A DNA stretch of 37,141 bases from positions 1 through 37,141 of IMG/VR virus record IMGVR_UViG_3300032173_000017, one strand, 5' to 3'. Positions 1-30,465 of this stretch are shown piece by piece. Within the stretch, counting starts at the first letter, position 1. Every line of letters starts with the position of its first letter. The notes beneath the pieces are model-generated. The model had not been told where the DNA came from and ran no database searches. It saw only the letters and a program-made list of their open reading frames with translations. The stretch is from a virus. The position numbers were made by a program, and so were the translations under genes.

Positions 1-307
1 TCAGCGTGCCGGAGTGGATGGCGGCATACTCGATGCCGCGGGCCGCGCAGAATTCCATGATGCGGGTCGTAAACCCCACCAGGAGTTCCGTGGCGTAGCC
101 GCCGCGAAAGTGGGCCTGCTCATAGATGACGAGGTCGGGGCGAAATTGGTTGAGCTGGGATACGAACCAATTGGTGAATTGTATGAATCGAAGGCCGGGT
201 GAGTCACCGCGCTTGAGCTTAAAATCCTTGCAGCCGTAGATGATGTCTGTGTCATAAAAGGCCGCCCAGCCGCAATGCGTGCCGACGTCCAGGGCCAATA
301 TAGTCAT
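1..307 (-). CDS. RuvC-like Holliday junction resolvase / RNase H-fold nuclease (3' end outside window)
   Basis: The frame opens at ATG 307-305 and is still open at base 1, so 102 residues are visible and the C-terminus is missing. A GAGGAG Shine-Dalgarno lies 6 nt upstream. The N-terminus (ILALDVGTHCGWA) is the first strand of an RNase H fold with an Asp at residue 7, and a second acidic position follows in LVIYEQAH (Glu63). This D...E spacing fits RuvC-type resolvases, which cut branched DNA with two metal ions. A phage that recombines with a RecT-like protein would use one to resolve joints before packaging. The gene follows the MT-A70 methyltransferase by 14 nt and is the last visible gene of the operon started at 2441. 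The other catalytic acids would be past the window edge, so the subfamily is uncertain. Confidence 0.75.
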   Translation of the reverse strand, partial: MTILALDVGTHCGWAAFYDTDIIYGCKDFKLKRGDSPGLRFIQFTNWFVSQLNQFRPDLVIYEQAHFRGGYATELLVGFTTRIMEFCAARGIEYAAIHSGTL

Positions 308-321
308 GACGTTCTCCTCGT

Positions 322-867
322 TCATAAAGTTATATCGCTTTCTACTTCGTCTCCCCAGACGTCCCAGCCCTCTACTTTTTCTCTGGCAAAAAGCTCTATG
401 CGCGGAAGGTCTCCCATAAGGGCGACAATTCTTGTCCTTACTTCGTCGGGTTTCTGGCTATGCCTGGTTCTGGCTGCTTCTACCAATTGTTTGACATTTT
501 TACAAGCCCGCCGCGGCCTGCCCCTTTTGCCAAGCAGGCAAAGTTCGACGTTCCCCATCGTCCATCGCCCTAAATTATGGATTTTTTTCCCGTGGGCCGT
601 ATATTTGCTCCAGCAAAAAGCGACGGTGACATATTTGAATCCCCAGGCCTTCATGACCTCTATACCTGTCGGCAGGTGAGGAGAAGTCACCCAGAGAAAT
701 AGGACACTTTCCTTTTCGGCGATGTCTTTTACCGGCAAGGCAGCGATCCACTTTTTGCTTTGCGTTTTGTATTGAAGGTCAAGGGATAAACTGTAGCCAC
801 GCATTTTATCGTGGTATGACCACGGCGGGTCGGCATAGATTATCTGGTATTTCTTGTCGGGGCTCAC
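322..867 (-). CDS. MT-A70 family adenine-N6 DNA methyltransferase
   Basis: This 181-residue protein carries the catalytic DPPW tetrad at residues 13-16 (IIYADPPWSYHD), the signature of the MT-A70 group of S-adenosylmethionine-dependent N6-adenine methyltransferases. FLWVTSPHLPTGIEVMKAWGF and VELCLLGKRG match later conserved strands of the same fold. The length is typical for phage members. Translation probably starts at GTG 867, whose GTGA overlaps the stop of the preceding gene, with a GGAGAGGGG ribosome site upstream. No restriction endonuclease lies next to it, so the likely role is an orphan methyltransferase that protects phage DNA from host restriction or marks it for regulation. The target sequence cannot be read from the protein. 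Confidence 0.9.
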   Translation of the reverse strand: MSPDKKYQIIYADPPWSYHDKMRGYSLSLDLQYKTQSKKWIAALPVKDIAEKESVLFLWVTSPHLPTGIEVMKAWGFKYVTVAFCWSKYTAHGKKIHNLGRWTMGNVELCLLGKRGRPRRACKNVKQLVEAARTRHSQKPDEVRTRIVALMGDLPRIELFAREKVEGWDVWGDEVESDITL

Positions 868-1100
868 TTTTCCCCTCTCCTAAAGTCTATATGCGTCAGC
901 TTCGGCGCATCATATTCTTTTTCCAGGTCCTTGCGGGCCTTGTCTTCGGAATCATAGTTGCCCTCTAAATATAGGGCGCCCGCGTCCGTCCAGGCCGCCC
1001 AATACCAGCATTTCAAGGGTTTGTAGTAGTCAACTATAGCGTTTATGACCCGGTCACCACAGATATAACGGGCCCGGCGCATTTTCTTCATGCGGCTCAT
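864..1100 (-). CDS. hypothetical protein, 78 aa
   Basis: This small basic protein is rich in Trp, Tyr, Lys and Arg. Its middle (KCWYWAAWTDAGALYLEGNY) suggests a short beta-sheet domain and its end is highly charged. The ATG at 1100 has an AAGGAAGAG ribosome site and the gene is coupled to the methyltransferase by a GTGA overlap. I do not recognise a family. Its position directly before the methyltransferase gene suggests an accessory early protein, which is inference only. Confidence 0.75.
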   Translation of the reverse strand: MSRMKKMRRARYICGDRVINAIVDYYKPLKCWYWAAWTDAGALYLEGNYDSEDKARKDLEKEYDAPKLTHIDFRRGEK

Positions 1101-1119
1101 TTCTCTTCCTTAAGAATGT

Positions 1120-1266
1120 TCAGTATAGGCCCCGCCCCAGATTCTTTAAAGCCATCAGCACGCCCTTAAGGAAGAAGAGCCAGAACAGCGCAGAGAAGAG
1201 ATACAGCGGCAACCACAATAAGGCTTTCCCGATTTTCAAGAGCGTAGTCTTTTGTTTTTCAGTCAT
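1120..1266 (-). CDS. small membrane protein, 48 aa
   Basis: A 48-codon frame begins at ATG 1266, preceded by the strong ribosome site AAGGAGGTCATT, and ends at TGA 1122-1120. The start overlaps the stop of the upstream gene by 8 bases (ATGACTGA), so translation is probably coupled. The protein has a basic N-terminus (MTEKQKTTLLKIGK), one hydrophobic segment at about residues 15-40 (ALLWLPLYLFSALFWLFFL) and a short basic tail, as in a single-span membrane protein. No family is recognised. The ribosome site and the overlap make it a convincing gene despite its size. Confidence 0.75.
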   Translation of the reverse strand: MTEKQKTTLLKIGKALLWLPLYLFSALFWLFFLKGVLMALKNLGRGLY

Positions 1267-1651
1267 AATGACCTCCTTTTTCGCTTCTCTCGTAGTCTAT
1301 ACGCGTCAGCTCCGGTGGCACGGGCGGATAAATCTGGCGGCCCAAAAAGGTCCGGCGCATATAGCGGAAAAAATCTACTTCCTTGTTGTAATCCAGCACC
1401 ATCTGGTGAAATTCGGCCTCGGTGTAGGCGTCAGAAACCTCCATCGCCTCAATAGAATGTTTTGTGCCGATTAGGTGGCCGTATTTAGACAAAGCGCCCA
1501 GATGAAGACTCACCACAACAGCAAACCCAACCACCACAAAGAACATACCCCATAGCAGCATGGATTCCAGGGTCGCCCAATGCTCATCATCATGCACGCA
1601 CCAAATAAATACGCATAACAGGACGATAAAAACGATGGGTAGGATTATCAT
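1259..1651 (-). CDS. membrane protein with two N-terminal transmembrane segments, 130 aa
   Basis: Two hydrophobic helices are visible, residues 1-18 (MIILPIVFIVLLCVFIWC) and about 30-50 (MLLWGMFFVVVGFAVVVSL), followed by a soluble 75-residue tail ending in charged residues (RIDYERSEKGGHYD). The likely topology is an inner-membrane hairpin with a cytoplasmic tail. The tail motif TRIDYERSEKG resembles the end of the 78-residue protein two genes downstream (THIDFRRGEK), so the two tails may be related. The start overlaps the stop of the preceding zinc-finger gene (ATGA), with an AAGGAGGAG ribosome site. The function is unknown. Confidence 0.8.
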   Translation of the reverse strand: MIILPIVFIVLLCVFIWCVHDDEHWATLESMLLWGMFFVVVGFAVVVSLHLGALSKYGHLIGTKHSIEAMEVSDAYTEAEFHQMVLDYNKEVDFFRYMRRTFLGRQIYPPVPPELTRIDYERSEKGGHYD

Positions 1652-1821
1652 GTCTCCTCCTTGGTGGGAATATGTTTTATCTTCTTGCCTTTCTGGCTGC
1701 GTGGGGCGGCCCTCCGCCTTTTGCCGCTACAATAGCCGCATGGCTCCCAGGGCCAAAACGGGTGGAGACCATAGGCAACGCCCGTGCCATGGCAGATCGT
1801 GCAAACTTCAGTTCGCCTCAC
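1648..1821 (-). CDS. DnaJ-type zinc-finger microprotein, 57 aa
   Basis: A 57-codon frame runs from GTG 1821 to TGA 1650-1648, with an AGGGAG ribosome site 5 nt upstream. Its stop overlaps the next gene's ATG (ATGA). The first half contains CTICHGTG and, 13 residues on, CGYCSG, giving two CxxCxG-type zinc knuckles as in the DnaJ cysteine-rich domain. The second half is a strongly basic tail (KRRRAAPRSQKGKKIK). Such mini zinc fingers are frequent in phage early operons and may bind nucleic acid or a host protein. The coding case rests on four correctly spaced cysteines, the ribosome site and the overlap. A 14-codon frame at 1818-1862 ends on this start (GTGA) and could couple its translation. 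Confidence 0.8.
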   Translation of the reverse strand: MRRTEVCTICHGTGVAYGLHPFWPWEPCGYCSGKRRRAAPRSQKGKKIKHIPTKEET

Positions 1822-1870
1822 TTTTTCTCCCTGGCGGGAATATAGGCGATCTTCGCTGACATGTATAGTT

Positions 1871-2158
1871 TTACCCGCTATGTCTCTTTTTTCTCAACTT
1901 ACTATGCCGCATCCCCGGCACCGGCGTCTCCCCTCCCCCCACCTTCTCCTCCCACTCAATCAGCCAATTCAGATACACCCGCGCCTTCTTCAAGTCCTCC
2001 GTGCCGTTTTTATCCCGATACCGGTATAGATACTTGATGATGTTCCCCGCGAAATACCCCCTCACCCCATCCGGCGGAAAACTCCCCAGAATATAGTCGA
2101 TCGGCTGGATCCCCTCCCGACTGTAATGCGCCTGCCTCGCGAGCGGCTCCTCCATCAT
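1871..2158 (-). CDS. DUF3310 (SaV-like) phage protein
   Basis: This 95-residue protein contains the DUF3310 pattern: HYSREGIQPIDYI near the N-terminus, then YFAGNIIKYLYRYRDKNGTEDLKKARVYL, in which GN-IKY-RY-K-DL-KA-YL are the conserved positions. DUF3310 proteins occur throughout phages in early or nucleotide-metabolism clusters. They are sometimes called nucleotide-kinase-like, but no activity is firmly established. The ATG at 2158 overlaps the stop of the upstream gene (ATGA). A second ATG follows immediately, so the protein may start one residue later. It is the second gene of the operon driven by the promoter at 2413-2441. Confidence 0.9.
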   Translation of the reverse strand: MMEEPLARQAHYSREGIQPIDYILGSFPPDGVRGYFAGNIIKYLYRYRDKNGTEDLKKARVYLNWLIEWEEKVGGGETPVPGMRHSKLRKKRHSG

Positions 2159-2343
2159 CCCTTCTGGCTCCGCCTCGGCAGCTTCTTACCCTTACTCTGC
2201 CTCAAGTCATACTCCAAAGACGCCGTCGTCATCCCCGGCATCCTCGGCTCCTTCCCCGCCCTCCGCCTCGCCAGCTCCGCCCCAAATAACCCCCTCTGCT
2301 TCTGGCTCACAATCTTCCTGTGCTTTCCTAACAATCCAGGCAT
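2155..2343 (-). CDS. small basic phage protein, 62 aa
   Basis: First gene of the leftmost operon. It starts at ATG 2343 behind an excellent ribosome site (AAGGAGGTTTTAAG), about 60 nt downstream of the predicted transcription start. The protein is very basic. Its core (SQKQRGLFGAELARRRAGK) resembles a short motif seen in many phage hypothetical proteins in which a QRGLMGA-like stretch precedes an RAGK-rich segment. The function is unknown. Size, charge and first place in an early operon would suit a nucleic-acid- or host-factor-binding protein, but that is inference. Confidence 0.8.
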   Translation of the reverse strand: MPGLLGKHRKIVSQKQRGLFGAELARRRAGKEPRMPGMTTASLEYDLRQSKGKKLPRRSQKG

Positions 2344-2956: not shown

Positions 2957-2991
2957 AAAAAAAAGCCCCCGACGGCGCAGCGTCGAGGGCT
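2957..2991 (-). terminator. strong intrinsic terminator of the amidoligase operon
   Basis: Read on the minus strand, 2991-2981 (AGCCCTCGACG) pairs with 2974-2964 (CGTCGGGGGCT) across a 6-nt loop. This gives an 11-bp stem with one G-U pair, followed by about eight consecutive T. It lies about 30 nt after the stop codon at 3021. It is the clearest terminator in the window and marks the end of the operon. Confidence 0.93.
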
Positions 2992-3020
2992 TGTTCGGGG
3001 CAAGCCTGGGGTTTACCGGA

Positions 3021-3482
3021 TCATTCGCTCCCCCATTCATCCAGCCGCCGCAGGCTCGCGGCCGGCACAGCCTGGGGCTCCGTCTCGCCTGCGAATAACA
3101 CCAGCGCCATCGGCTCGCTGGTTTCGAACGCCCGCTCACACAGATCCAGGAGCTCGCACATGTTGGCCTGATCGGGTTCGGGGCCGGCTCCGCGGTCGAA
3201 CCAATAATAGCGCCCGCGGCGGAGCAGCGCGAGCATCAGCGTCTGACGGCGGCGCTCGGCGCTGCGGCCAGGAACCTGAATATGCTGGAGCTCCCTTGCT
3301 TGGTCGCAGACGGCCTGTTGGCGCTCGGCGTCCAGCCAGCAATCCGTATGATCAATACAGCCGCGGCAACGCTCGAAAATGTAGGGATGGCCGCAGTCTC
3401 TCTGTCGTGCGGGCGCCTGCGATCGGCTCTCCGCCAACGCCAGCGCCGCCCACACCAGCGCCTGAACCTCGGGACTGATCAT
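3021..3482 (-). CDS. cysteine-rich hypothetical protein, 153 aa
   Basis: The start is taken at ATG 3482, whose ATGA overlaps the upstream stop and which has a GGAGGCGG ribosome site. A longer frame exists, but its extension runs back over the upstream gene. Residues at about 30-48 hold a cysteine/histidine group (CGHPYIFERCRGCIDHTDC) that could bind zinc. A basic helix (RSAERRRQTLMLALLRRG) and an acidic C-terminal half (LLDLCERAFETSEP) follow. No family is recognised. It is the last gene before the terminator, so it belongs to the amidoligase transcript, but nothing in its sequence says what it does there. Confidence 0.75.
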   Translation of the reverse strand: MISPEVQALVWAALALAESRSQAPARQRDCGHPYIFERCRGCIDHTDCWLDAERQQAVCDQARELQHIQVPGRSAERRRQTLMLALLRRGRYYWFDRGAGPEPDQANMCELLDLCERAFETSEPMALVLFAGETEPQAVPAASLRRLDEWGSE

Positions 3483-3790
3483 TTCCGCCTCCGCGGCTTG
3501 AGCAGCGCGGCCACACGATGCCATATACAGCCGGACGACAGGATCGCGACCATCAGTTCGCGCAGCTGCGCAGCCGCCTGCTCCGCAGCGCGGACGTTAT
3601 CGCACAACAGCATCAGGGCATTATAGCGCGGAGCACGCCCGCCCAGCCGCGCCCGCTCAATCTCGACTGCCTGCTCAACCGCCTCACGCAGAACCGGCCA
3701 GATATCGCGCGTCGCGCAAATGTTTTCCCAGAGCTCCCCTACGACTCGGAGGGCCTGCTGCGCGTCCCGAAAGTCTGCCCGTCGTTTCAC
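3479..3790 (-). CDS. hypothetical helical protein, 103 aa
   Basis: A mostly alpha-helical basic protein with Ala, Arg, Glu and Leu heptad-like stretches (LREAVEQAVEIERARLGG, VRAAEQAAAQLRELMVAI) and a basic end (LLKPRRRK). It starts at GTG 3790, which overlaps the stop of the JAB peptidase gene (GTGA), behind GGGGGA. No domain is recognised. Tight coupling to the JAB gene suggests it is made in step with it and could be a partner, but that is inferred from position only. Confidence 0.7.
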   Translation of the reverse strand: MKRRADFRDAQQALRVVGELWENICATRDIWPVLREAVEQAVEIERARLGGRAPRYNALMLLCDNVRAAEQAAAQLRELMVAILSSGCIWHRVAALLKPRRRK

Positions 3791-4305
3791 AGCGTCCCCC
3801 GCAAGCCGCGCACAACCGCCGCGGCTTTTTCTTTCACATGCGGCATTTCCCTGCTCTCGATGGCGCTATAAACCCGCGGCTCGCCTGTTGGGGATCGGCC
3901 GATAATCAGGTCATCTACATAATCAATGTTCATTACCTCGCAAAAAGCCGCGATCGTCGAGCGCAGGCTCCTGTCTTCATCCGACGGCTCAACCTCTCCG
4001 GAGGGATGATTATGCGCCGTTATCAGCCCCTGCGCACTCCCGAGCAGCGCGTCCCGCATAACGGATCGCGCGTCAACATACGCGCACGTCGCACCACCAG
4101 CCCGCAGCCGATAACAGATTACGTCATAGCGCGCCGACAGATACAGGCACAGATGATGTTCATCGGCCAGGTTGTCGAGGAATACGCGCGCCGCGGCCGC
4201 CGCAAGCTCCGGCCGCACGATCCGCCGAAACCGGACGTCCCCCGCGGACGGGCCTGCCCGATATGTCGCGACAAGCTCGCGCAGTGCCACCGGCTTACCC
4301 GTCAT
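3787..4305 (-). CDS. RadC-type JAB/MPN-domain metallopeptidase-like protein
   Basis: This 172-residue protein carries the JAMM zinc motif. His98 and His100 in ITAHNHPSGEVEPSDED, with Ser108 and Asp111 at the HxHP...S-x2-D spacing, are the metal ligands and catalytic residues of JAB/MPN domains. LLGSAQGLITAHNHPSG is close to the RadC subgroup. The N-terminal helix-hairpin-helix of chromosomal RadC is absent, so this is a lone JAB domain of about 130 residues with an N-terminal extension. JAB proteins hydrolyse isopeptide or amide bonds in several systems, and biochemical roles for the RadC branch are uncertain. Here it shares an operon with an amidoligase and a class II amidotransferase, where a hydrolase for the product, or for a precursor, would make sense. 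The start ATG overlaps the stop of the 44-residue membrane protein gene. Confidence 0.88.
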   Translation of the reverse strand: MTGKPVALRELVATYRAGPSAGDVRFRRIVRPELAAAAARVFLDNLADEHHLCLYLSARYDVICYRLRAGGATCAYVDARSVMRDALLGSAQGLITAHNHPSGEVEPSDEDRSLRSTIAAFCEVMNIDYVDDLIIGRSPTGEPRVYSAIESREMPHVKEKAAAVVRGLRGTL

Positions 4306-4436
4306 CGCAGCCCCCCGCGCCGCGCACGCACGGCTCGACAGACCCGATTGAGCAGCCCCAGAACGACCAGCCCGACGGCCGTTAGAATTACAGCTACGGA
4401 CAGAACTACCACCACCATCGGGAACTCACTCGGCAT
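4302..4436 (-). CDS. single-span membrane microprotein, 44 aa
   Basis: A 44-codon frame from ATG 4436 to TGA 4304-4302 fills the space between two genes exactly. It overlaps the upstream stop by 11 bases and the JAB gene start by ATGA. Residues 6-29 form one long hydrophobic helix (MVVVVLSVAVILTAVGLVVL and on), followed by an Arg-rich tail (RVCRAVRARRGGLR), so an N-out, C-in topology is expected. No recognisable family. It is encoded directly before the JAB peptidase and could bring that protein to the membrane. No ribosome site stands out, so expression probably relies on coupling. Confidence 0.7.
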   Translation of the reverse strand: MPSEFPMVVVVLSVAVILTAVGLVVLGLLNRVCRAVRARRGGLR

Positions 4437-4695
4437 CGTCAGCGTCATCATCGGGAAACGCCCTATGATCGGCGTCATACTGCGCCGCCCAGCCCGCCGT
4501 CGTCAACGATATGTCCGAGATCGGCGCGCCGCAGCCGTCGCAGCAGGGAATATAATCCCATTCATCCCCCGCGAATACGGGCGTCCAGCCCGCCAGCTTT
4601 TCATGGCGCGCCCGCGCCTCATCGCCCGCGCAGTCCGGACAAAAAAGCTCTGCGTCCGGAGTCGCGTATGCGACGACCTCAAAATCCTTTAACAT
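4426..4695 (-). CDS. zinc-ribbon-like acidic protein, 89 aa
   Basis: Two cysteine pairs, CPDC at about residues 19-22 and CCDGCG at about 51-56, are spaced like a zinc ribbon. The C-terminus is very acidic (FPDDDADDAE). It starts at ATG 4695 behind a GGGGG ribosome site and is the first gene after the promoter at 4760-4788. No family is recognised. The acidic tail and metal-binding centre could suit a protein-protein adaptor, but that is a guess. Confidence 0.75.
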   Translation of the reverse strand: MLKDFEVVAYATPDAELFCPDCAGDEARARHEKLAGWTPVFAGDEWDYIPCCDGCGAPISDISLTTAGWAAQYDADHRAFPDDDADDAE

Positions 4696-4708
4696 TTAGA
4701 CCCCCTAA

Positions 4709-4745
4709 AACGCCTGCCGGCTCTGCGCCGCCGGCCTCCAGCGTT
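4709..4745 (-). other. leader stem-loop before the 4695 gene
   Basis: On the minus strand, AACGC (4745-4741) and GCCGGC (4735-4730) pair with GCCGGC (4721-4716) and GCGTT (4713-4709), with an 8-nt loop and an asymmetric internal bulge. Only TTTTA follows before the GGGGG ribosome site, so it is a poor terminator. It sits in the leader of the promoter at 4760, close to the ribosome site, and may affect translation or mRNA stability. Confidence 0.45.
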
Positions 4746-4759
4746 AACATACATCTATA

Positions 4760-4788
4760 AATCTATATCGGCACAGGGCTCCTGTCAA
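4760..4788 (-). promoter_or_regulatory. internal sigma-70 promoter (TTGACA-17-TAGATT)
   Basis: A consensus TTGACA (4788-4783) is followed by a 17-bp spacer and TAGATT (4765-4760), 10 of 12 positions. It overlaps the last codons of the upstream gene and would start transcription near 4753, giving extra expression of the zinc-ribbon, membrane, JAB and two downstream genes. Confidence 0.65.
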
Positions 4789-5162
4789 GCACTTTTTTCC
4801 GGCCGCCGCCGGTAATGACGACGGCGCTTATAGTATGACGGGCCGCTAATCACAACGCAATTCCACGTCGGGAGATCCTGGTAGTGCCGCGCCCGCGCCG
4901 CAAGGCGGCCGCGCTCGAAGTCCCACTGCGCGGCGTCTAACTCCGGCCGCCAGGGCGCGCCCAGCCCGTCGGTAATATCTATAATCCGGCCCTTATTGTT
5001 GATAACGGCGAGCATGGGCTCTTCCAGCCGCAGTAGTTCTTCTTTAGTGCTGGGGCGCAGCGGCCGGCCCACGTATTTGGCCTGTAGTGCTCTCGCCCAG
5101 GCGCGCCACCGCTCCCGCCACTTGCGCTCCGGTTCGCTAATCCGCCGCTTCCTGTATCTCAT
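4785..5162 (-). CDS. basic hypothetical protein, 125 aa
   Basis: Very basic at both ends: MRYRKRRISEPERKWRERWR at the start and YYKRRRHYRRRPEKSA at the end, with a neutral centre (MLAVINNKGRIIDITDGLG) that looks like a small folded domain. The composition suggests nucleic-acid binding or contact with a negatively charged polymer. It starts at ATG 5162 behind GGGGGG and overlaps the end of the zincin gene by 26 bases. No family is recognised. Confidence 0.72.
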   Translation of the reverse strand: MRYRKRRISEPERKWRERWRAWARALQAKYVGRPLRPSTKEELLRLEEPMLAVINNKGRIIDITDGLGAPWRPELDAAQWDFERGRLAARARHYQDLPTWNCVVISGPSYYKRRRHYRRRPEKSA

Positions 5163-5544
5163 CGCGCCCCCCTATGATCCGCAAAATTATGCTCCCCGCA
5201 AACGCCGCGCGCTCGACATTCGCCCGACGGACGGAGGCCGGCACCGCTTTAATCCAGGCCTTGATATATAATTTGCTGTCCCCGACAGGGATCCCCAGGG
5301 CCTTACAGACGGCGGCCGCCGCCGCTTCCGCCTCCAGCTCGCGTATGGCCCGCGACGGCCGCGACGTGTATAATGCGCCTAAAACAATATGCGCGGCTTC
5401 ATGTATCAATGCCCGCAGCCGGTCGTCGTCCTGCGTCAACGTGCTCGGGATGAATATGGCGCGGCCGTCCGTCCGAGCATGGCGATAATTGCCTATATAG
5501 ACGGGCAGGCCCAGCCGCTCCGCGGCGCGTTTGAAGTTTACCAA
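5137..5544 (-). CDS. zincin metallopeptidase-like protein (HEAAH), 135 aa
   Basis: The motif LIHEAAHIVLG places HExxH at residues 48-52, and a downstream acidic helix (RELEAEAAAAAV) provides the expected third-ligand region, as in small ImmA/IrrE-like phage zincins (DUF955-like). It starts at TTG 5544 inside the last codons of the amidotransferase gene, behind a GGGGG ribosome site, so translation is probably coupled. Family members cleave proteins, often regulators. In this operon it is the second putative peptidase beside the JAB protein, which suggests processing of a peptide or protein substrate modified by the amidoligase. Catalytic residues are present, but the substrate is unknown. Confidence 0.85.
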   Translation of the reverse strand: MVNFKRAAERLGLPVYIGNYRHARTDGRAIFIPSTLTQDDDRLRALIHEAAHIVLGALYTSRPSRAIRELEAEAAAAAVCKALGIPVGDSKLYIKAWIKAVPASVRRANVERAAFAGSIILRIIGGRDEIQEAAD

Positions 5545-6209
5545 TTCATGCCCCCGTCGTCATCGCGATCGCGAAAATGCCCGCGCCATTTCGGCCCGTA
5601 GCCATATGGCCCTAACGTGTTCTCGATCATCGGCCGGTATCCCATATTAGAGAATACCACACCGCGTTCCTCGACCCAGCCCGTCCCCAGGATCGTGATC
5701 CCCGACAGCCGCATCAGCGCCCAGCGGCTTCCCGCGAAAATGGTGAGCACCGCGGGGTTGAATCCCGCATAATACGCGGCCACCGCCGAGTCGTTAACGT
5801 CGGGCCAGGGCGTTTTATCTCCGGATCGCATATAGTAATCCACCGCAAGCTGCGATCCCCCCGCGATTATCATGCCGTTATGGAAAAGCACTCCGACGTC
5901 GGTTTCGTATTTTAGTCTTTGCGCGCCCGCAGGGACTCCGAGCTCGAATGGGTGCGTATTACGCGCGCTTACGCCACCGGCCGTGGCGATCCGAAAATGG
6001 GCGACGTGCGGCCGTGTCTCGGAAACGTGCTCCGTGTAAAACTTCCAGGCCACCTCGGGCGTCATATAGCCCTTGCTCACCGCGACCTGCCGCCGTGGGC
6101 GCCGGCCGCTATACCAGGCAAATCCGGCACCATCCGGATTATTCTGATAGCAGTGCGAAAATTCCAGCTCCGTCAACGCTCTGGACTTACAAACCGCAAT
6201 GATACACAT
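5538..6209 (-). CDS. class II glutamine amidotransferase (GATase II, Ntn hydrolase)
   Basis: This 223-residue protein begins Met-Cys (MCIIAVCKSR). Removal of Met would expose Cys as the N-terminal nucleophile, as in class II glutamine amidotransferases. Other family signatures follow in order: NPDGAGFAW at about residue 24, HFRIATAGG at about 70, NTHPF at about 85 and LFHNGMI at about 108. These positions bind glutamine and form the oxyanion hole. The enzyme hydrolyses glutamine and hands ammonia to a partner. The partner is most likely the amidoligase encoded immediately before it: the stop and start overlap (TGATG), with GGGGGAGGAT as ribosome site. The Asp/Arg-rich C-terminus (RDRDDDGGMNW) is not a known domain. 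Phage copies of this type occur beside phiEco32-type ligases. Confidence 0.92.
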   Translation of the reverse strand: MCIIAVCKSRALTELEFSHCYQNNPDGAGFAWYSGRRPRRQVAVSKGYMTPEVAWKFYTEHVSETRPHVAHFRIATAGGVSARNTHPFELGVPAGAQRLKYETDVGVLFHNGMIIAGGSQLAVDYYMRSGDKTPWPDVNDSAVAAYYAGFNPAVLTIFAGSRWALMRLSGITILGTGWVEERGVVFSNMGYRPMIENTLGPYGYGPKWRGHFRDRDDDGGMNW

Positions 6210-8038
6210 CAGATCCTCCCCCGCGCGGCCGCCGCAGCCCGCGCTCCGTTAGCCAGGATTGCGACAATTTCCCGTGCCGCCTGCTCCCGACAGATCATAT
6301 AGGTTTCCCGCATGTTTCGGAATGCGTGGGGCAAGCCGAATTTGTTCCACTGAACGGGTCGTTCAGATTCCTCAAGCCAGCTTGCGCCTGGGATCGCACT
6401 CGCCCAGGAAAAAGCAAATCCGCGTTCCGCACGTAAGCCATAGAATACAGGGGCTTGAGGTTGGAAGATTATGGCCCGCTCCGCCGGTTTAAACCGCCGC
6501 CGCCGCAGCCCTGCCTTTATCAGTGTCTCGAAATCCGCCGCTATGTCAGAGTCCCACTCGTCATTAAAGATCATTTTCAACGCAGCTCGGCCGCGCCGGC
6601 GCCGGTTTGGCTTAAGGCGCCAATTTTCAACCAGGGCATCGGGAGTCAGCGCCAGGTGTTTTAGCGCCGCTTCCTTGAATCTCGCATACTGCTCCATGCT
6701 CCAGCCGCAATACGTATGATAATCCTGAAAGCCCAGATGCCGCTCATCATACTTGAACGTGCGCCCTGAATAATAACGCCGGACTAACGTCTGAATGCCG
6801 TGCGCGACGGCTTCCATCAGCTTCGGCGATTCCATTATCTCCGAGGGCAGCGTGCGATATTCCCATCCCCCGTGGCTTTTATGCCCCTCAACCGCGCCCA
6901 GCCGCCTGTAGCCACAGCGCGCTCGCGCCGCGCCCGACAGCCCCAGCAGCGGCCGCCCCAAAAAATCGTCTAACAGCATGATCAGGTCGGGCGGAGGATA
7001 TTGATCCGGCACATTAGCGACGTGAATATGACAGCCCAACGACAGGCGATCGCCTACGTGCGACAGGGTCAGGTCGGGCCAGCGCCGCGCGCACTCGCGC
7101 ATCAGCGCGGCCGTATTTTTTACCAGCCCCCGCGCCGTGCGCGCCGGAGACGGACGCAGCTCTAACTGATCGCCGCTCCCGTCGCAGCCGATCTCGGCGG
7201 ACGTGCTGGAAGCCAATGACGCCGCCGGTATCACATTCCCGCGATCGTTAAGCACGGTCAGCTCGGGGTCAGCCCCCAACGTCGGCCGCACCGCAGGCTT
7301 GCGCCGCGAGGGCGCAGGCATCTTGGCCAGCGGCCGATATTCTAATACGCGCCGCCACCAATCCGTCATGCCGCTCGACGCCGCGTATTGCTCCAGCCGC
7401 TCTATCCCCTCTTCCCGATGGGTCGCGTCATGCGTCAGGTAAAGCTCGAGCTCCGGTATATAGACGCCTGCGAAATAATACGTGTCTGATTTAATCTCCG
7501 GCCCGTCCCAGCGAATGAAAATTTGTTTCAGCCACCGCAGCATCGGCGCGTTGATATGTTCACCGCGTAAATTAGTTTCGATTAAATAGACATACACCGG
7601 CCCCAGCAAGTCCATCACCGACCGTGAGCCCGCAGCCAGATCATAATAATCAAACGACCCGTCAGTATGATCCGCAGCGCCAACGTCAACCGGCCGGCCA
7701 AATTCAACCCGTATATCCCTCGCCGCGACCTGAAGGGCAGGGATCAGCGCCGCGTAAAACGCCAGCGTCAGCCCGCGCTTATCGCCTGTTTCCTGCCATC
7801 CATAAGGAATATAAAAACCATGACGATCCCGTGCTGGAGCCGGTATTGCGCAATGCGAAACCGCGTATTGGACGCGGCCCGTCAGGCCAAACGCAGCCGC
7901 CACTCTGTCAACCAGGCGAACCCATTCCAGGTCGTCATAGCTTATCCCGCCCTCGGTTTCCGTCCAATCTTGGGCATGAACGGTTTGTAGGCCCATCAGG
8001 CGCGAGGCGGAGATCCCCGTATATTTAATGGTTTTCAT
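6209..8038 (-). CDS. phiEco32-type amidoligase (COOH-NH2 ligase, glutamine synthetase-like fold)
   Basis: A 609-residue protein. Residues from about 250 to 480 match the phage COOH-NH2 ligase (amidoligase type 2) pattern: GADPE at 255-259, CDGSGDQLELRPSP at about 284-297, and GCHIHV at about 334-339, which supply the acidic and His residues for ATP and metal binding in this glutamine synthetase-like fold. WEYRTLPSEI and FQDYHTYCGW follow. The family joins a carboxylate to an amine using ATP. The N-terminal 240 residues and the basic C-terminal 120 are not recognised and may bind the substrate. The start ATG 8038 overlaps the upstream gene by 14 bases behind a GGGGGA ribosome site. It is coupled to the glutamine amidotransferase, so ammonia from glutamine is a likely amine donor. 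The target is not known from sequence. Confidence 0.9.
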   Translation of the reverse strand: MKTIKYTGISASRLMGLQTVHAQDWTETEGGISYDDLEWVRLVDRVAAAFGLTGRVQYAVSHCAIPAPARDRHGFYIPYGWQETGDKRGLTLAFYAALIPALQVAARDIRVEFGRPVDVGAADHTDGSFDYYDLAAGSRSVMDLLGPVYVYLIETNLRGEHINAPMLRWLKQIFIRWDGPEIKSDTYYFAGVYIPELELYLTHDATHREEGIERLEQYAASSGMTDWWRRVLEYRPLAKMPAPSRRKPAVRPTLGADPELTVLNDRGNVIPAASLASSTSAEIGCDGSGDQLELRPSPARTARGLVKNTAALMRECARRWPDLTLSHVGDRLSLGCHIHVANVPDQYPPPDLIMLLDDFLGRPLLGLSGAARARCGYRRLGAVEGHKSHGGWEYRTLPSEIMESPKLMEAVAHGIQTLVRRYYSGRTFKYDERHLGFQDYHTYCGWSMEQYARFKEAALKHLALTPDALVENWRLKPNRRRRGRAALKMIFNDEWDSDIAADFETLIKAGLRRRRFKPAERAIIFQPQAPVFYGLRAERGFAFSWASAIPGASWLEESERPVQWNKFGLPHAFRNMRETYMICREQAAREIVAILANGARAAAAARGRI

Positions 8039-8198
8039 GCCGATCCCCCAGGCCCGCCGCCATCACCGCGTCAATGAATACGTGCCGCAGCGGCAGCGTA
8101 TAATGCCGCCGCGCGCGCAGCTCCCATAGCTCGATCGTGCCGCGCGCCGTGTCCACCAGGCCACATACCGGCCGCCGCGTGATAACGCCGGCAGCCAC
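8025..8198 (-). CDS. small hypothetical protein at the head of the amidoligase operon, 57 aa
   Basis: I chose GTG 8198, which has an AAAGAGGT ribosome site 5 nt upstream. An in-frame ATG at 8225 would lie at the predicted transcription start and has no ribosome site; if used, it adds nine residues (MEKHKKRFR). The visible protein (AAGVITRRPVCGLVDTARG, then HYTLPLRHVFIDAVMAAG) looks like a small beta-rich domain. No family is recognised. Its last 14 bases overlap the amidoligase gene, so translation of the two is probably coupled. Confidence 0.68.
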   Translation of the reverse strand: MAAGVITRRPVCGLVDTARGTIELWELRARRHYTLPLRHVFIDAVMAAGLGDRHENH

Positions 8199-8231
8199 CC
8201 GAAACCTCTTTTTATGTTTTTCCATAATTCT

Positions 8232-8240
8232 ATTATATCA
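8232..8240 (-). promoter_or_regulatory. extended -10 promoter of the amidoligase operon
   Basis: TGATATAAT (8240-8232) fits an extended -10 element (TGnTATAAT), lying in a short AT-rich island between genes. No good -35 lies at 17 bp; a TTGACA at 8250-8245 is only 7 bp upstream, so it cannot act as the -35 for this box. Transcription would start near 8225, giving a leader of about 27 nt that contains the GAGGT ribosome site. Confidence 0.55.
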
Positions 8241-10609: not shown

Positions 10610-11439
10610 GCCTTTTTATGTTCTTTTTCCCACTGTTCCATTTTCGCCGATATCTCCAGGCCGTGTATGCCCAGGTTGTTCAGGCGTTGGACCTCTGCCC
10701 AATACTCGGGCGGCTTGTGTATCGTTGTGTTTTTACCGATCATGCTCGGCCGATATTCCGTGTTATTCGGGCCCTGCCTTGTGCCGCCTCTGTCCTGCGT
10801 CCTTGAAAGCCAATTCGTCAGGAACCTGCCGTAGTTTGAACGCGGCCGCTTTGTGGGATTCGCCACAAGCCAGGCTGCGGCCTTGGCCAACTCAACTTCT
10901 ATGTCGCAGGCGGGGTAGGCTTTCTTCCATAACGCCATTCGCTCTTCGGTGATCCCTTCCCACATAGTGGTGTCGCTAAAGGTTATCTTCTCTTCTCTTT
11001 TCTTTATCTTCTCTTCTCTTCTCTTCTCTTCTCTTGGGTCCGGATTTTCGGACATGGCGTCCGGATTTTCGGACATGGCGTCCGGATTTTCGGACATGAT
11101 TCGTCTTTTATGCCTGTCGGAGAGCTCATACTTTTCCCAATTATTGATTTTCAGGGTGCCGTCTGAATTTTTTGCTAATTTGGCTATTTTAGGATCCAGA
11201 CATTTTTGTATGGTTCTTTCTAATAGCTCTTTGGGTATCACTAACATACCGGCAAGCTGTTCGAGCCCATAAGGGCATCCCTCGTTGGCCCGAATATAGC
11301 CGTCGTCTTTTGAGCCCAGGGCCAGCAAATCTATCCAGACGCTGCGCTCTTCCGGCGTCAGCTCAATTCTCGTTGAGCCAAAAAGCCACTTATCCACCCA
11401 GAGGGGCAACCATTGACTATCAGAATATCGCTTTTTCAT
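10606..11439 (-). CDS. replication protein O / replisome-organizer-like helicase loader
   Basis: The 277-residue protein starts at ATG 11439, overlapping the upstream stop (ATGA). The N-terminal 90 residues (MKKRYSDSQWLPLWVDKWLF and on) match the winged-helix replisome organizer domain that recognises the origin. The middle is a repetitive spacer: MSENPDA three times, then REEKRREEKIKKREEKI. Residues from about 170 (AYPACDIEVELAKAAAWLVA, YGRFLTNWL) resemble the C-terminal domain of phage O/DnaD-like proteins, which bring the host replicative helicase to the origin. The spacer is encoded by three 21-bp repeats and a pyrimidine tract, the layout of an origin inside the initiator gene as in lambda O. 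No polymerase is seen in the window, so host replication machinery is probably used. Confidence 0.85.
   Translation of the reverse strand: MKKRYSDSQWLPLWVDKWLFGSTRIELTPEERSVWIDLLALGSKDDGYIRANEGCPYGLEQLAGMLVIPKELLERTIQKCLDPKIAKLAKNSDGTLKINNWEKYELSDRHKRRIMSENPDAMSENPDAMSENPDPREEKRREEKIKKREEKITFSDTTMWEGITEERMALWKKAYPACDIEVELAKAAAWLVANPTKRPRSNYGRFLTNWLSRTQDRGGTRQGPNNTEYRPSMIGKNTTIHKPPEYWAEVQRLNNLGIHGLEISAKMEQWEKEHKKA
10986..11035. repeat. homopyrimidine/homopurine tract next to the iterons
   Basis: About 50 nearly pure C/T bases on the plus strand (A/G on the minus strand), built from repeated CTTCT units, interrupted by a single A at 11006. It encodes the REEKRREEKI-rich stretch of the initiator and lies 3 bp from the three iterons. 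Such tracts adopt unusual helical structures, and the lambda origin likewise has an easily melted strand-biased segment beside its iterons. Confidence 0.8.
11039..11101. repeat. three 21-bp tandem iterons, candidate replication origin
   Basis: Units at 11039-11059, 11060-11080 and 11081-11101 share TCCGGATTTTCGGACATG. The first two are identical over 21 bp and the third differs only in its last three bases. With its upstream base each unit contains an inverted repeat, GTCCG-gatttt-CGGAC, suitable for binding a dimer of the initiator. They lie inside the initiator gene itself, next to the pyrimidine tract, which matches the layout of lambda ori. Confidence 0.78.
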
Positions 11440-15647: not shown

Positions 15648-18600
15648 TTATTTTTCCGGCAGGTTCTCGAATCTGACCTTGCCTTTGATCTCGTCCTGCA
15701 CCCACCGCAGGGTGTCGGCAGGACTGATAGTGTATTGCTTGTAGTTCTTCATTGCAACGCTCTCGGGTATCGGAGAAGCGCTGGTCATATAGGCGATGGT
15801 CAGGGCCTCATGAACCTCGGCGTTGTGGCGGGCGATCCGCTTGATGAGGGGGTCGCCCAGGGCTTTATACAGGGCAGGCACGTCGCCGCGCGCAGCGGCC
15901 ATGAGCAGCAGGCGGCCCTCCGTCGTGTCCATGTTCCTGCGGATCTCCCCGTAGGCCCGCTGCTGCAAGTCCTCATACCGGCCCACGATCTGCTTCTGCA
16001 TGTTCCGGATCTCATACTGCTCCTTGAGTCGGGCAGGCGTGAAGCCTAACCGCTTGCCCCGTATCTCGGCGTCGGTGAACTTAATGTAAAGGTCTTTTTG
16101 AACTTCCTTGCCTTCCTTGCGCCACAATTCTGCGGTCAGGTAGTTGCTCAAGGGCCGGATCGGGATCTGGGCAAATGCCTCGGCGAACCGTTTCCGCTGG
16201 ATGAGTTTCTGGGCGGTCGCCAGCCGTTCGCCCATGCCGTAGGCCGGACCCGCAAGCTGGCCGAGCGGGTCGAAGCCGGGCGACATTATCGTTCCCAGGT
16301 CGAGCATATCGGTCAGGTCGAGCTTGGCCCAGCCGCCGACGCCGTAGGATAAGAACTGCGCCATCGCTTCGGCCATCGGGTTTTCGGATGCCCGGCCTTT
16401 CATCAGTTCATATTCCGGGTCTTTCTTGAAGAGCGCCCTGGCAACGGCGCGCACGAGCGGCCACATCAATACACCCATCGGCACGAGTCTTTTCACTCCG
16501 AGAAACAGGGCCCTGCTCGTCATCATCCGTATTTTCGCCTTTGGTGTGCCCCGGGCCATTATGTCGGCAAATTCGTGCAAATAATTGAGATGCGTGGCCT
16601 TGAACAGGTAGGCGACCTTCACCAACCCACGAACCGAACCGGCCTGTGCTACCAACTCCGGGATGTTCGTCTTGCCGTAGGTGTAGGTTGAATACTCGAC
16701 GGCGTCCTTCATAGACTCATAAATATCAAGCGGCGAAGTCAGTTTGTCAAACCGGGTCGCCAGGATGTATCCGGCACAGGCGGCATGGAGCTTGTTCCAG
16801 AACTCCGTGCCGATGGCTACGAAGTGGAGCGCATCCAATATATTGCGGGCCCGGTCGCGCCCAGGGCCCAGCAGGGACTGCATGTATTGCCCGCTGACAA
16901 CCTTCTCGGTGATGGCCTTATCCAGCAGCATGGCCAGGGTCGGGTCAATCGTGGCGTGCTGGCCCTTAACCCGGGTGGCCAGATATCTGAAGGCATCCAT
17001 CATAGACTTGCTATACACAAAGTCCATAAATTGTTTACCTACATGATTTCCGATATACGGCCAGAGTGTGAACACGTTCTGCAGCACCTGCTGCAGGGCG
17101 AAGGTCGCGGACAGGGCCAGGGTCGCAAGCGAGATGCCCTGCCGGACGTGGACAAAATCCTTGCTGGAGCCGTAGATCGAATTCTCCAGGAAGTGGTTGT
17201 AATAGATACTCGCCTCCGGGTTTTTCTTGACGTCTATCTGGGCGATCCAGGGATTCGCTTGGTAGCGGGCGCGGGCCGAAGCGAGGCGGCGGGTGGTGGC
17301 CTCGACAAACGATTCGAGGCTTAACATCATGTCGTCGAAATCCACCTTGTAGCCCGGGACCCAGCGACGCTGCATGAAGTGCTTGTCCAGCGGCGAGCGC
17401 ATTTTGAGGAGCTTTATCATCATCTGGACATTCGGGTCTCCACGGTCGGCGCCGGCCTGCTCCACCAGATTCTCCAGGTCCCATGTGGACATCCTGTGGA
17501 AGCGATCCCAGAAGCCGGGCGGCAGCGTCTCGCGCCTGTAAACCTGCGCGTCCTTGTAGCCCATCTTCCGTATCAATTCAGCCACCTTGTTGGCTTCGGT
17601 GACGCTGGTGAACGCCGAGTAGAACGACTCATGTGCCACGCCCAGCCCCGCCCTCGGCTCGATCAGGGCCACCTCACCCGGCGACATCTCCTCTTTGGTG
17701 GCCCAAACGATCCAGGGGCCGTGGCGCTCAATGGGGAAATAGCCGCCCAGCTTTTCAAGGGCTTCGTCAATCCTGGCGTCTATTGCCTGTTTCGTAGGCT
17801 CGTCGGAACGATAGTAGTCAGACTGAAGCCGTAGCCGCTCGCGGATACGCTCCTTCGAGGCGTTGATGGCGTCCACGATCCTCTGGTAAACCTCAATCTC
17901 TTGAGGCGCCAGGCCGAAATTAGTTCGAAGCTGATCGGCACTCAAATACTTCTGGACTTCTTGCCTGTTGCCGTGGTCGAGGGCGTGGGCGATCTTATTC
18001 TTGGAGTCCCGAGGCAGGGAGTGAAGCTCCCGCAGGTTCAGGTTTTCCAGTGCCCCTGCGAGCGCGCCGTTGTAGAAGTAGATGAGATTGTCCTGAACGG
18101 CCCGGAATATCTTCCTGCCAGCGGGGTTCTTCATGAACAGGCCGCTCCACTGCGGCAGGAGGAAGGTATTCGTGGCGGCCCGCCGGATCTTCGTCGCCCA
18201 TAGCCTGCGGCCCGACTTCCCGGCTTCCCCCGGCAGCGGGACGAGATGTGTGACCCTGGCCGCCGCCTCTACGAACGGGTCAAAGAACTCATAAACCGGG
18301 TTGGGGCTCAAGTCTTCCGGCTTGATCTGGAGCTTTGCCGTGACGTCTTGGAGTTGCGGGAACCTGTTCCGCATCGCGTCCGTGAAGTTCGGAGCCAGCT
18401 GCTCGACGGCTTCCGGGTGCAGGGCGTTTGCGGCGAACCACATGGCGAATAGTTCGACCGGCGTCCAGCGATAATTCCGCACATAATCCGGCTGCGCCTG
18501 TATCAATTCGGGTGTTATCTCGCGGAAGAAGCTCGTGACTTCTTTAAGTTCGGCCAGGAAACCGGCCTCCATCTCCGTTCGGTAAGGGATGCCAGCCCGC

Positions 18601-21600
18601 TCGCACAACGTGTTCAGAGACTTTCCCCTGCCAATCTGTAAGATGTCAAAGGCGTGGCCGACCTCATGCGCGAAGGTGGCGACGCTGTTGATCGTGCCGA
18701 GCATGATTTGCGCGCCGCCGGTCAGCAGGCCGTAAACAAACGCGCCGTTGGCTTCCATTCTGGCGTTGATACTGAAATCGGTGCAGCCCAAAGATCTGGC
18801 GAAATCAATGAGATAGCCCTGAACCTTGGACGGGTCGAGGATGAGCCGGCCCATGCTTTCAAGGCCCCCGGCTATGATGTCTCCGAACTTCTTTCCGGTC
18901 TTCCAGACGGTTGTGCCCTTGCCCGCTTTTTCCTGCTTGTAGCGGTCGAGCGAGATGCGGCTCATAAATTCATCAGGAAGAATGACTTGGCCGTTTTCGA
19001 CATATTCGATTACGGCGGCGTGCTCGGCGTCATCCAGCTTGTCCCAATCCAGCCCGTAGAACTCGGCGACTTCCATCGCCCCGATTGTGGGCGGCGTCGG
19101 GTGGTCGCGCGAAGACATCACGCGCTCGAAGTCGGCTTCCTCGGCAGGCGTCCGCTTCTTGACCCGTTTCTTTTTGGTTGTTGGCTCGGCGGCGGGCTTG
19201 CCTTCCTCGGCGGGTGGAGCAATTTCTTTGCCCGATACCGGAATTTGCGGCTCAATGTCTATCTGGTCGTTAGGATAGGCCTGGTTGTAAGCCCTGATTG
19301 ATACGGGCAGGCCGTTCCAGTCCCGGATTTCGTATTTTGCGCCCATCATTATCGCTATGGGTTCTTCTTTCCCGCCTCTTACTTTTTGTCGTATAGTCAT
19401 TCCCTCGCCGTCTGCGGCCGTATAAAACCGCAGGGGTTCTTCCCCGTAGGCCCGGAGAAACGGAATCACGAAGTCGGCCCGCATCACGAAAGGTTGGCCG
19501 GTTGATTTTATCTTGAAGAGGGCGAATTGTTTAGGCACGTTGGTTTCTAATATGGTCGCCTGCCAAGCGTAATGGAACGGATTTTTGGAGATAGTCCAAA
19601 AATCTTCATCCCGTAGGCGGCCAACCCAACCGACGAGTTCCAACTCGTGTTCGGGCTTCATGCGTTCAACGAGACCGACTATGGACTTTTGCTTTATTTC
19701 TTTCTTGTAATTTTCATAGGTAAACTTAATATTATCATGGAGTTTGAATGCTATGTGCCCATCAGTGGCCCAGCCGACATTGCCCTGGGCTTGGTCTTCT
19801 GGGTCTGGGCTAATCATATCCTTGAGCGTAATTTGAGGATATAGTTTTGACAGTAGTTTGCGGCGGATGAAATATCTCAAGAACGAGATCCAGGGCTTCA
19901 TTTTGTGCCCAATGGTCATCGGCCCCCCATAGGGATTCAGCATCAAAAAGACGGCGCCATCAACCGCCATCGCCTTGGCCGTGGTGGGGGGTATTTCATC
20001 GGAGTCTTCCGTCGAGTTGGTGAGGTTAGCGATGGTGCCATTCCTGTCTGCGGCGGGCTTTACTTGATTGACGGTGACGCTGAAATCGGGCATTGACTCA
20101 CGTTCAATTTTTTTGATATTCGCGTCAAATCTCTCTTGCAGGCCATTGAGTATTTTCTTGTTGAGATCAACCAAGGGCCACCGGGCCGGGCCAAGCCACT
20201 CTGTCATGGATAGGAATCCATTGCGGAGCGACCCCAAGTAAGACTCGAATCTTGATGCTTGGGCGCCTTCATAAGCAAGCCCGAGGTTAATGACGGCCTC
20301 GTCGCGCAGGCCCAGCTTGTCGTATAGATACTCGATCTCCTTGGGCGTCAATTTTTCCAGCGGCCCATTTTCACGCTGTTCCTCTGCGAAGAATTCCGGC
20401 AGTAGTTGGAATATGCTTTTCAGGTAGCTTCTGATTTCGTCTTTGATGTCTAACGGGGCGCTCGTCAGCAGGCCTGCCATCTCGTCGATATCTCGGCCAA
20501 ATCGAATGACTGCGTAGAGTTGACCCATCCGGCTTGTAGAAGTCCCTTCCTTAAACGCAGGCGAAAACATTATCCTCTCAAGCACGTCCAGCATGGGGCG
20601 GACAGGCATCGCCGGCATTTCCTTGACCATGTATTGCATCAAGTCGTGCGAGAGACTTTGGAAAAGAGCGCGGCGGTCGTTTAAGCCGGGGGCCACGGTC
20701 TTGACTTCCGGCGGCGTTGCGGGAGAGGACGGTTCCGGCGGCGCTCCGGTCTCCGGCGGCACGGGTTCCGTCCCGGGTTCGGGTTTGGTTTCCGGTTCCG
20801 GCTCCGCTGAAATCTCAATCGGCTCTACGCGCGGTGCGGGCTCTGTCTGCGGTTCGGGAGCTTGCGGTATCGCCGCAGCCGCCGTAGGTTCAGTTGTGGG
20901 TTCAGCGGCCGTGGTCGGCTCCGTGCCTTTTTTGGCCTTTGTCTTCTTCCCGCCTTTCTTTTCAGCGGGCGGCAAGGTATAAATCGTCGTCGAGTCAACG
21001 TCGGGGTTAATTCCGGCCATCCGAACCAGCGTGTCAAGCGGGGCTGGCGAATAAACCGCAGGCGCTCCACGGCTCGTGCGGTAGGGCAGAAGAACCGCCT
21101 TCAGTTCGCCGTTGACTTTTGCAAGAAGTGCAGGATGCGCGGTATTTGTGATGGCCACGCTGAATTCGGCGTCAGGGAACATTCTTTTGATGCCCTGGAC
21201 GCGGAACTGCTCGTAGCCCGTGAAATATACCTTCCCGTCATGCATCGTCCTGAAAATAACTACATTGGGGGCAGCGACTTTTCTGGCCGCCGGAGTTTCC
21301 GGCCGGTATGCTGGCAGCGGATCCTTTGAGACGAGATAGAAACCACCCTGCATGTTGAGATAATAAACGGGGACAGCGGGTTCGCCTGTCATTTTCGAGA
21401 TCGTGGCGATAGCTTCTGCCGTAGGTGCAGATAGTGTCCTGGACGGTCGTGCCCACTTCGGCGGCTCGCCCTTGACATACAATTGCTTATCGGTGAACCA
21501 GGCCCCGTCGGCCGAAAGGGCATAGTTTCCCATCGCGGAGATGTTCCGACTCGAAAAGCCGAATGGGTCGCGCTTTAGCGTGTTGAACAGCCTGACAATG

Positions 21601-26674: not shown

Positions 26675-27541
26675 CTATTCAATATAAACCGAGCCGCTGA
26701 ATCTGCCGTTGGCCGGGTTCGTGACCCACGTCGGGCAAACTACTTTGATTTCAAAATAGTCGCCTGCCGCCATGGAGATATTCAGGGCGCCGTTCTGCCA
26801 GAGGCCCAGGCTGGCATCAAGCCCGACCGACTGGATTAAATAATCCGTTGTCGCGTTCTTCCTGATATAAACGCTGACAGCCTCGTCGCTTCCGGCGGTG
26901 CTAAAATAACCCTCTATAGAAGCCGCTTTTATTGTCCCGGCCTTCGGGACATAGACGCGTGCCTGACCCTGCGAAGTTGCGGGCGCGGCGGCGGCCTTAT
27001 TGCCGAAATAGTAGGTGGCCGCGTCTGTTAGCGTCGCCAGGTTGGCCGCCGTAAGGCTCAATGCGTAACCGAGGCTCGAACCAGCGGCTGGCGCCGCCCA
27101 GGTGCCGTCAGCCCGTAAGAAGTTGGTTGTGCCGCCGCCGAGTTTCGGAAGCAGGCCGTGGTGCACGGTCGTCGCATCAAGGTCGGTATTGTCGTCCGGC
27201 GAGGCCAGGTCATCTAATTTTATCGCATCCCCGCCGCCGCTTTGGTGCGTCACGGCATGTGCCGGTGCTGTCGCCGTGTTCCAAACCGACCCGTCAAAAA
27301 CCTTATCAGCGTTGGCCGTCGCGTCCCAGGCCCGCCAGCCCTCGTCCGGCATGATGAAACTCCAGCCCGTGCCGTTGTAAACCGCTATCCGCTGGGCATA
27401 GCCCGTCCAGGCCCCTGTCGGGCTTGAACCGACAATATACCTGTCGCCCTTCACCGGCGAGGTAGGTGGGTCGTTCTGCGTAGCCAATACCGGCGGCTGC
27501 CAGGAGAACGCCCCCAGGACAGGCACCTGATGTTGTGTCAA
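26675..27541 (-). CDS. tail fibre-like protein with DUF2793 N-terminus, 288 aa
   Basis: Residues 1-95 carry the DUF2793 pattern: FSWQPPVLATQNDPP, GDRYIVGSSPTGAWTGYA and EGWRAWDATANADKVFDGSVW. This domain occurs in phage tail proteins. A collagen-free linker, HAVTHQSGGGDAIKLDDLAS and FLRADGTWAAP, follows and is shared with the proteins at 27554 and 30466. The last 140 residues (LSLTAANLATLTDAATYYFG and on) are a beta-rich domain ending in FEIKVVCPTWVTNPANGRFS. Such C-terminal ends carry receptor binding in fibres. It starts behind GGAGG and is the last fibre gene of the module. It is probably a trimeric side or tail fibre. Confidence 0.82.
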   Translation of the reverse strand: MTQHQVPVLGAFSWQPPVLATQNDPPTSPVKGDRYIVGSSPTGAWTGYAQRIAVYNGTGWSFIMPDEGWRAWDATANADKVFDGSVWNTATAPAHAVTHQSGGGDAIKLDDLASPDDNTDLDATTVHHGLLPKLGGGTTNFLRADGTWAAPAAGSSLGYALSLTAANLATLTDAATYYFGNKAAAAPATSQGQARVYVPKAGTIKAASIEGYFSTAGSDEAVSVYIRKNATTDYLIQSVGLDASLGLWQNGALNISMAAGDYFEIKVVCPTWVTNPANGRFSGSVYIE

Positions 27542-27553
27542 GGCGGCCTCCTA

Positions 27554-28189: not shown

Positions 28190-28204
28190 TTTAAGCCTCC
28201 TTGC

Positions 28205-29818: not shown

Positions 29819-29923
29819 CGTCCCTGCCCTATACCAATATCCTTCGATACCGGTTCAGCATCGTCCTCCTTATGCCACTGTCATCTTCGGGCAAACATAA
29901 GTCGTGCCGGACTCGCACACGTC

Positions 29924-30451: not shown

Positions 30452-30465
30452 GTTAAGCCTCCTAT

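Follow-up and report, generated by a model that had tools for sequence, protein, structure and literature searches.

Introduction

Phage amidoligase systems, in which a phiEco32-type COOH-NH2 ligase is accompanied by a class II amidotransferase, an ATP-grasp enzyme and a gamma-glutamyl cyclotransferase, were reportedly predicted by Iyer et al. in 2009, and an ATP-grasp and/or gamma-glutamyl cyclotransferase partner is said to be frequent and typical in these cassettes. The stretch analyzed here (the window) is the 37,141-nt IMG/VR virus record IMGVR_UViG_3300032173_000017, positions 1 to 37,141, from an uncultured bacterial virus, which carries such a ligase, a small class II glutamine amidotransferase and a candidate zincin metallopeptidase in a row. 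Like the systems of 2009, the window has a PF14395 ligase beside a class II amidotransferase, encoded by overlapping genes on the same strand in the probable early region of a phage. Unlike in those systems, the ligase belongs to an enlarged clade, the amidotransferase is a short single domain with the zincin after it, and neither an ATP-grasp nor a cyclotransferase gene stands beside the ligase pair. An ATP-grasp partner was present in two of the three ligase-amidotransferase-zincin triads, the window being the third.

Two other kinds of phage system were compared. In OM43 phages MEP401 and MEP402, the gene of a large ligase-like protein overlaps that of a small class II amidotransferase, and the latter enzyme matched its counterpart in the window (31% over 124 aa). 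However, their ligase-like protein fell in or near PF12224 at a score below the cut-off and was not detectably PF14395, and no zincin or RadC gene was found nearby. CmoY of Synechococcus phage S-B43 is also a phage-encoded enzyme of ATP-dependent amide-bond formation, as predicted for the window, and its relatives hydrolyze glutamine; it differs in its asparagine-synthetase fold and DNA substrate, and its CmoA/CmoX partner was not found in the window. Relatives of the amidoligase systems have been suggested to modify the cell wall against superinfection or to make metabolites (PMC10580990), and in the phiEco32-like phage SU10, mass spectrometry detected an ATP-grasp protein and a glutamine amidotransferase, both listed as early gene products (PMC4281155).

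Results

The genes named in an earlier note on this DNA were all found at their positions on the minus strand. The ligase (609 aa, 6209..8038, minus strand) matched PF14395, the phiEco32-type COOH-NH2 ligase family, with an E-value of 3.8e-17 and 62.8 bits against a curated cut-off of 25. Its core of glutamine synthetase/gamma-glutamylcysteine synthetase (GS/GCS) fold covered residues ~250-430 and contained the motifs GADPE, DGSGDQLELRP, GCHIH and WEYRT, and it was flanked by extra N-terminal (1-240) and C-terminal (430-609) regions that are not present in the classical small ligases. GxDPE, E293, HxH and EYR were kept in at least 90% of 13 aligned ligases. The AlphaFold2 model was confident in parts, mainly in residues 250-430, with a predicted local distance difference test (pLDDT) of 65-94 in the core. 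The best PDB matches of the model in Foldseek were glutamine synthetases, gshA/gshF (glutathione/gamma-glutamylcysteine synthetases), GmaS and the Pup ligase PafA, with low template modeling scores (~0.2 by query) owing to the unmodeled N-terminus. As modeled, the core folds like glutamine synthetase, which is the expected superfamily. In the ligase tree, seven enlarged phage ligases, including all three that are accompanied by a zincin, were grouped with a support of 100/99, apart from twelve classical small phiEco32-type ligases.

The ligase gene was overlapped by that of the amidotransferase (223 aa, 5538..6209, minus strand), with stop and start sharing TGATG behind a GGAGG ribosome site. 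The protein begins with MCIIA, which provides the N-terminal Cys nucleophile, and its match to PF13230 was borderline (23.8 bits, cut-off 23). Residues C2, HFR71-73, HPF86-88 and HNG110-112 were invariant in 6/6 aligned members, the profile matched the amidotransferase-like protein 1te5 in the PDB, and the identity to the Victivallales amidotransferase described below was 33% over the full length. These sequence features supported an intact class II enzyme that would serve as the glutamine-hydrolyzing partner of the ligase. More PF14395-type phage ligases were found in IMG/VR and GTDB contigs by scans with a ligase alignment, and in essentially all related loci inspected a class II amidotransferase was located one to a few genes from the ligase. 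A motif-based test for amidotransferases, which misses the longer MCG-type enzymes, was applied to the small ones. The pairing of the two enzymes, also proposed in the earlier note, was thus established by gene order and conserved active-site residues, and the ligase probably forms amide bonds at the expense of ATP.

The gene of a zincin-like metallopeptidase candidate (135 aa, 5137..5544, minus strand) followed, overlapping the amidotransferase gene by 7 nt. Its HExxH motif (HEAAH) was confirmed, while no named family could be assigned: the protein was below every Pfam cut-off, its best and still weak score being that for MPTase-PolyVal (E 1.1e-4, 22.7 bits, cut-off 27.5), next to M78 (E 0.001, 19.3 bits, cut-off 22). 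The AlphaFold model of the zincin was too poor to help (pLDDT 42). The leaning to MPTase-PolyVal is shared with the polyvalent/ArdC-type MPTase zincins, and the neighboring RadC protein, like the RadC of mobile elements, is a solo RadC-clade JAB protein (PMC5512222). Unlike the proteins of that study, both are small stand-alone proteins beside a ligase instead of domains within one large injected protein.

Two distant sequences, viral or virus-like, had the same order ligase-amidotransferase-zincin. A Victivallales contig of a metagenome-assembled genome (L136, contig C341 of genome G037) carried the ligase, the amidotransferase, a SprT-like zincin and an ATP-grasp ligase in a row, and a 179-kb virus record (L154; IMG/VR 3300044712_002690) carried the ligase, the amidotransferase, a HEAAH zincin and an ATP-grasp-like protein. 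The ATP-grasp ligase stood after the triad in both relatives and was absent from the window. The ligases of both were 24-28% identical to that of the window, and the amidotransferases 32-37%. When the HExxH open reading frames (ORFs) of all loci were compared, the two best matches of the window zincin were the zincins of the other two triads, and a profile built from those two ranked the window zincin first among 8,315 ORFs, the query-contig copy aside (E 0.031). HExxH proteins made up 11 of the 833 called genes of 70-250 aa (1.3%) in the phage loci compared. A HExxH gene directly after the amidotransferase was found in 2/4 of the closest ligase loci, for which the chance is ~0.001 if independence is assumed; over eleven loci with a small amidotransferase it is ~0.009 under the same assumption.

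On contig C341, two divergent ligase-amidotransferase pairs (C341:56294-58779 and 64779-66979) lay in opposite directions about 6 kb apart; their ligases were 44% identical, and one pair had the zincin and ATP-grasp genes and the other did not. An ArdC-type antirestriction gene was located near these loci. The ligase profile matched 1/388 genomes of the phylum to which this contig belongs, so that the ligase is mobile rather than housekeeping in that phylum.

A RadC-type JAB protein with an HNHPSG motif (172 aa, HNHPSGEVEPSDED, 3787..4305, minus strand) was encoded 0.8 kb beyond the zincin gene. Its assignment in the earlier note was borne out by PF04002 (E 7.7e-23, 81.2 bits, cut-off 22.1), by the HNH-x7-S-x2-D pattern (the HxHx7SxxD motif of RadC-clade JAB proteins) and by a match to PDB 2qlc (5e-12). 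The upstream Glu aligned in 2qlc was not conserved, and other RadC proteins also vary there. No RadC gene was found in any of the 22 other phage records that carry amidoligase genes or this amidotransferase, with positive controls; the Victivallales ligase contig also lacked one, both RadC genes of that genome being on other contigs. For JAB proteins of the RadC clade, it has been argued that the ubiquitin-tail groove is missing and that the substrates are nucleic acids and not peptides (PMC5512222). Owing to the absence of RadC from these records, the proposed nucleic-acid role of its clade and the unconserved acid, RadC was rejected as a second peptidase and is probably a separate neighbor outside the amide-forming module. 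The proposal of one unit of four genes, to be sought together in phage genomes and given up if they were regularly unlinked, was therefore reduced to a set of three: the triad recurred in two relatives, and of the two peptidases the zincin kept its place and RadC did not.

Database searches with single proteins were also carried out. Scans of IMG/VR with the ligase, the amidotransferase or RadC yielded no relatives, nor did the ligase in GTDB genomes, and neither the whole ligase nor the zincin gave a tblastn match in INPHARED. The major capsid protein had 80 relatives. Among the record sets checked, L018/G001 alone shared the genome beyond the capsid gene, and a few others had an isolated weak match; G001 is a 30-kb contig without the cassette region and hence uninformative on cassette conservation. 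No ligase or RadC match was obtained in 36 capsid relatives, the PF14395 search having had no working positive control.

The remaining genes of the run were small. A 66-aa ORF without a family match (8025..8225, minus strand) directly preceded and overlapped the ligase gene. After the zincin gene, whose end it overlapped, came that of a basic 125-aa protein (4785..5162, minus strand), then an 89-aa protein with two CxxC pairs (4426..4695, minus strand) and a 58-aa single-helix membrane microprotein (4302..4478, minus strand). All three were present as ORFs and had no Pfam match above cut-off (curated cut-off for the microprotein), and the zinc-ribbon and membrane character previously given to the latter two was derived from the CxxC pairs and hydrophobicity. 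Two small ORFs of 103 and 167 aa without a family match (3021..3790, minus strand) closed the run. Neither an ATP-grasp nor a gamma-glutamyl cyclotransferase family match was obtained for the ten cassette genes.

The run had been described as extending from a promoter to a strong terminator. The terminator was retained: an intrinsic-terminator-like hairpin with a 12-pair stem, 8 G-C pairs and a T8 tail lay 3' of the last ORF (2963..2992, minus strand), had the longest stem in the region scan and was convincing by eye; the whole region had 5 terminator-like sites against 5.7 in shuffles, i.e., no excess. The consensus promoter was not retained, and the promoter scan listed no site before 8225, where TTGACA and TATAAT are just 7 nt apart and at most an extended -10 element abuts the ATG. 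The cassette may be transcribed from a promoter further upstream. Between the terminator and the next gene, a near-consensus promoter (TTGAAA-17-TATAAT with a TG extension, 11/12) was observed at 2413-2441 on the minus strand, and the interval 2480-2930 before it was G+C-rich and of low complexity, with short degenerate repeats and no convincing gene.

The minus strand carries the apparent genes of the window. Its right side was occupied by portal, scaffold, capsid and tail genes. In the middle were the genes of a 2,565-aa protein and of a protein resembling lysozymes; gene order and sequence, not profiles, were the basis for the structural and lysozyme names. RecT, a phage replisome organizer N-terminal domain and a PD-(D/E)XK nuclease followed upstream of the cassette, and an MT-A70-type methylase came last. 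Apart from this methylase, PADLOC gave no defense-system match of note. In the sister contig G001, homologues of the window genes at 1871-2343 lay beyond its portal homologue; for this reason, a circularly permuted genome is probable, in which the two ends of the window (1-2343 and 36332-37141) would be connected by an absent stretch, the expected site of the terminase. Outside the window lie a few kb of this genome.

Several features were observed apart from the cassette. The 2,565-aa protein (15648-23345, minus strand) had a second zincin-like motif, TFAHEVGHAFD, and no Pfam match over the whole protein; it is probably virion-associated and may be a polyvalent injected protein. A perfect 21-bp tandem repeat of 2.9 copies (11038-11098) lay in frame within the replisome-organizer-like gene, encoding (D/S)ENPDAM repeats that adjoin a charged REEK-rich stretch. 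Repeated modules of the type HxSGGxDxIKLDxLAxPxDNT...FLRxDGTWA, common to tail proteins, were found at 26675-31593 on the minus strand and are possibly recombining tail-fiber segments; a 108-bp tandem duplication was located at 28764-28970.

Discussion

Class II amidotransferases and GS-type ligases hydrolyze glutamine, transfer the ammonia, form an acyl phosphate and convert it to an amide. Our preferred reading, to which we give a probability of roughly 0.4, is that the cassette encodes a glutamine-fed carboxylate-amidating module and a metallopeptidase that share a peptide or protein substrate. The amidotransferase would hydrolyze glutamine through its N-terminal cysteine, and we infer that the ammonia would pass to the ligase encoded by the overlapping gene, whose glutamine-synthetase-like site would use ATP to activate a carboxylate for amidation. 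The zincin could act on the same, probably peptidic, substrate, either by trimming it ahead of the amidation or by cleaving the product. The ATP-grasp ligase of the two related triads may add a further amino acid or peptide unit, a step that the window would lack. Action early in infection is probable because the module sits among replication and recombination genes, and its target may be a host envelope peptide or a host protein.

Several observations weigh against this reading. The N-terminal 240 residues of the ligase had a pLDDT below 50. The homology among the zincins was weak (26-31% over 57-74 aa, E 1e-4 for single pairs and 0.031 for the profile), and Pfam leaned to different families, with the window zincin nearest to PolyVal/M78 and the Victivallales zincin SprT-like, so that the same slot may have been refilled by different zincin families. 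The zincin is optional in such loci, as the second Victivallales pair (C341B) and phage G039 (L140) have a ligase and an amidotransferase without it. Because branches in the ligase tree were long and the order within the enlarged group was not resolved, the tree neither establishes a single origin of the zincin link nor speaks against one.

The absence of the zincin from these two loci would also suit a doubtful alternative, namely that the zincin and RadC are independent counter-defense genes placed in the same run and that the ligase and amidotransferase alone cooperate. Zincins and RadC are common as single genes or domains in conflict proteins of mobile elements (PMC5512222), and for RadC, with its absence from the 22 records, nothing stood against this explanation. 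For the zincin, it is opposed by the recurrence of slot and gene order in three distant contexts and by the mutual similarity of the triad zincins, the best among HExxH ORFs.

Hydrolytic partners of another kind occur in related loci. A gamma-glutamyl cyclotransferase was fused to or near the amidotransferase in five of them (ctfjg026, C75C1, StenR_269, T4S1-k141_470236 and L013) and was not found near the three zincin triads by a motif search, which covered 5 kb around the cassette for the window. That the zincin stands in place of this enzyme hints at a peptidic substrate here. The same distribution could also be explained by a small-molecule pathway, in which a gamma-glutamyl-type amide or an amidated metabolite is made and released by the hydrolytic partner (the cyclotransferase in the relatives, the zincin here) and no protein or peptide is modified. 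PF14395 indeed groups with GS/GCS-type enzymes. This explanation is nevertheless unlikely, as a zincin is normally a peptidase and fits a peptide better, the window neighborhood has no cyclotransferase, and biosynthetic partner genes are not nearby.

Amidation of a carboxyl group on phage DNA bases is very improbable: phage S-B43 CmoY is an experimentally shown amide ligase on DNA, where it acts on 5-carboxymethylcytosine, a cluster related to that of CmoY carries a glutamine-hydrolyzing domain (PMC12783734) and the window encodes an MT-A70-type methylase, but CmoY is asparagine-synthetase-like and not GS-like, and no cytosine-C5 methylase or carboxy-S-adenosylmethionine synthase was among the family matches of the window, in which some genes were unscanned and from which a few kb of the genome are missing.

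The preferred reading, a glutamine-fed amidating module with a metallopeptidase, thus describes a real gene set whose composition is new and which belongs to a known kind of system, already predicted, and not to a new kind. It is a bolder and rather unlikely proposal that the ligase, the small amidotransferase and the zincin make up a viral trim-and-amidate module of a distinct type: the metallopeptidase would expose or remove a peptide end, the ligase would amidate it, and the module would have spread between unrelated viruses and modify a host envelope or protein target in a way that no known phage system does. For the widespread phage amidoligase/amidotransferase pairs, peptides and cell walls have been predicted as targets for years, and a proven substrate was not found in the literature consulted. 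The set is compact, three genes with overlapping starts that include a dedicated metallopeptidase, and its size would allow reconstitution; by suggesting a peptidic substrate, the zincin narrows the search for that substrate.

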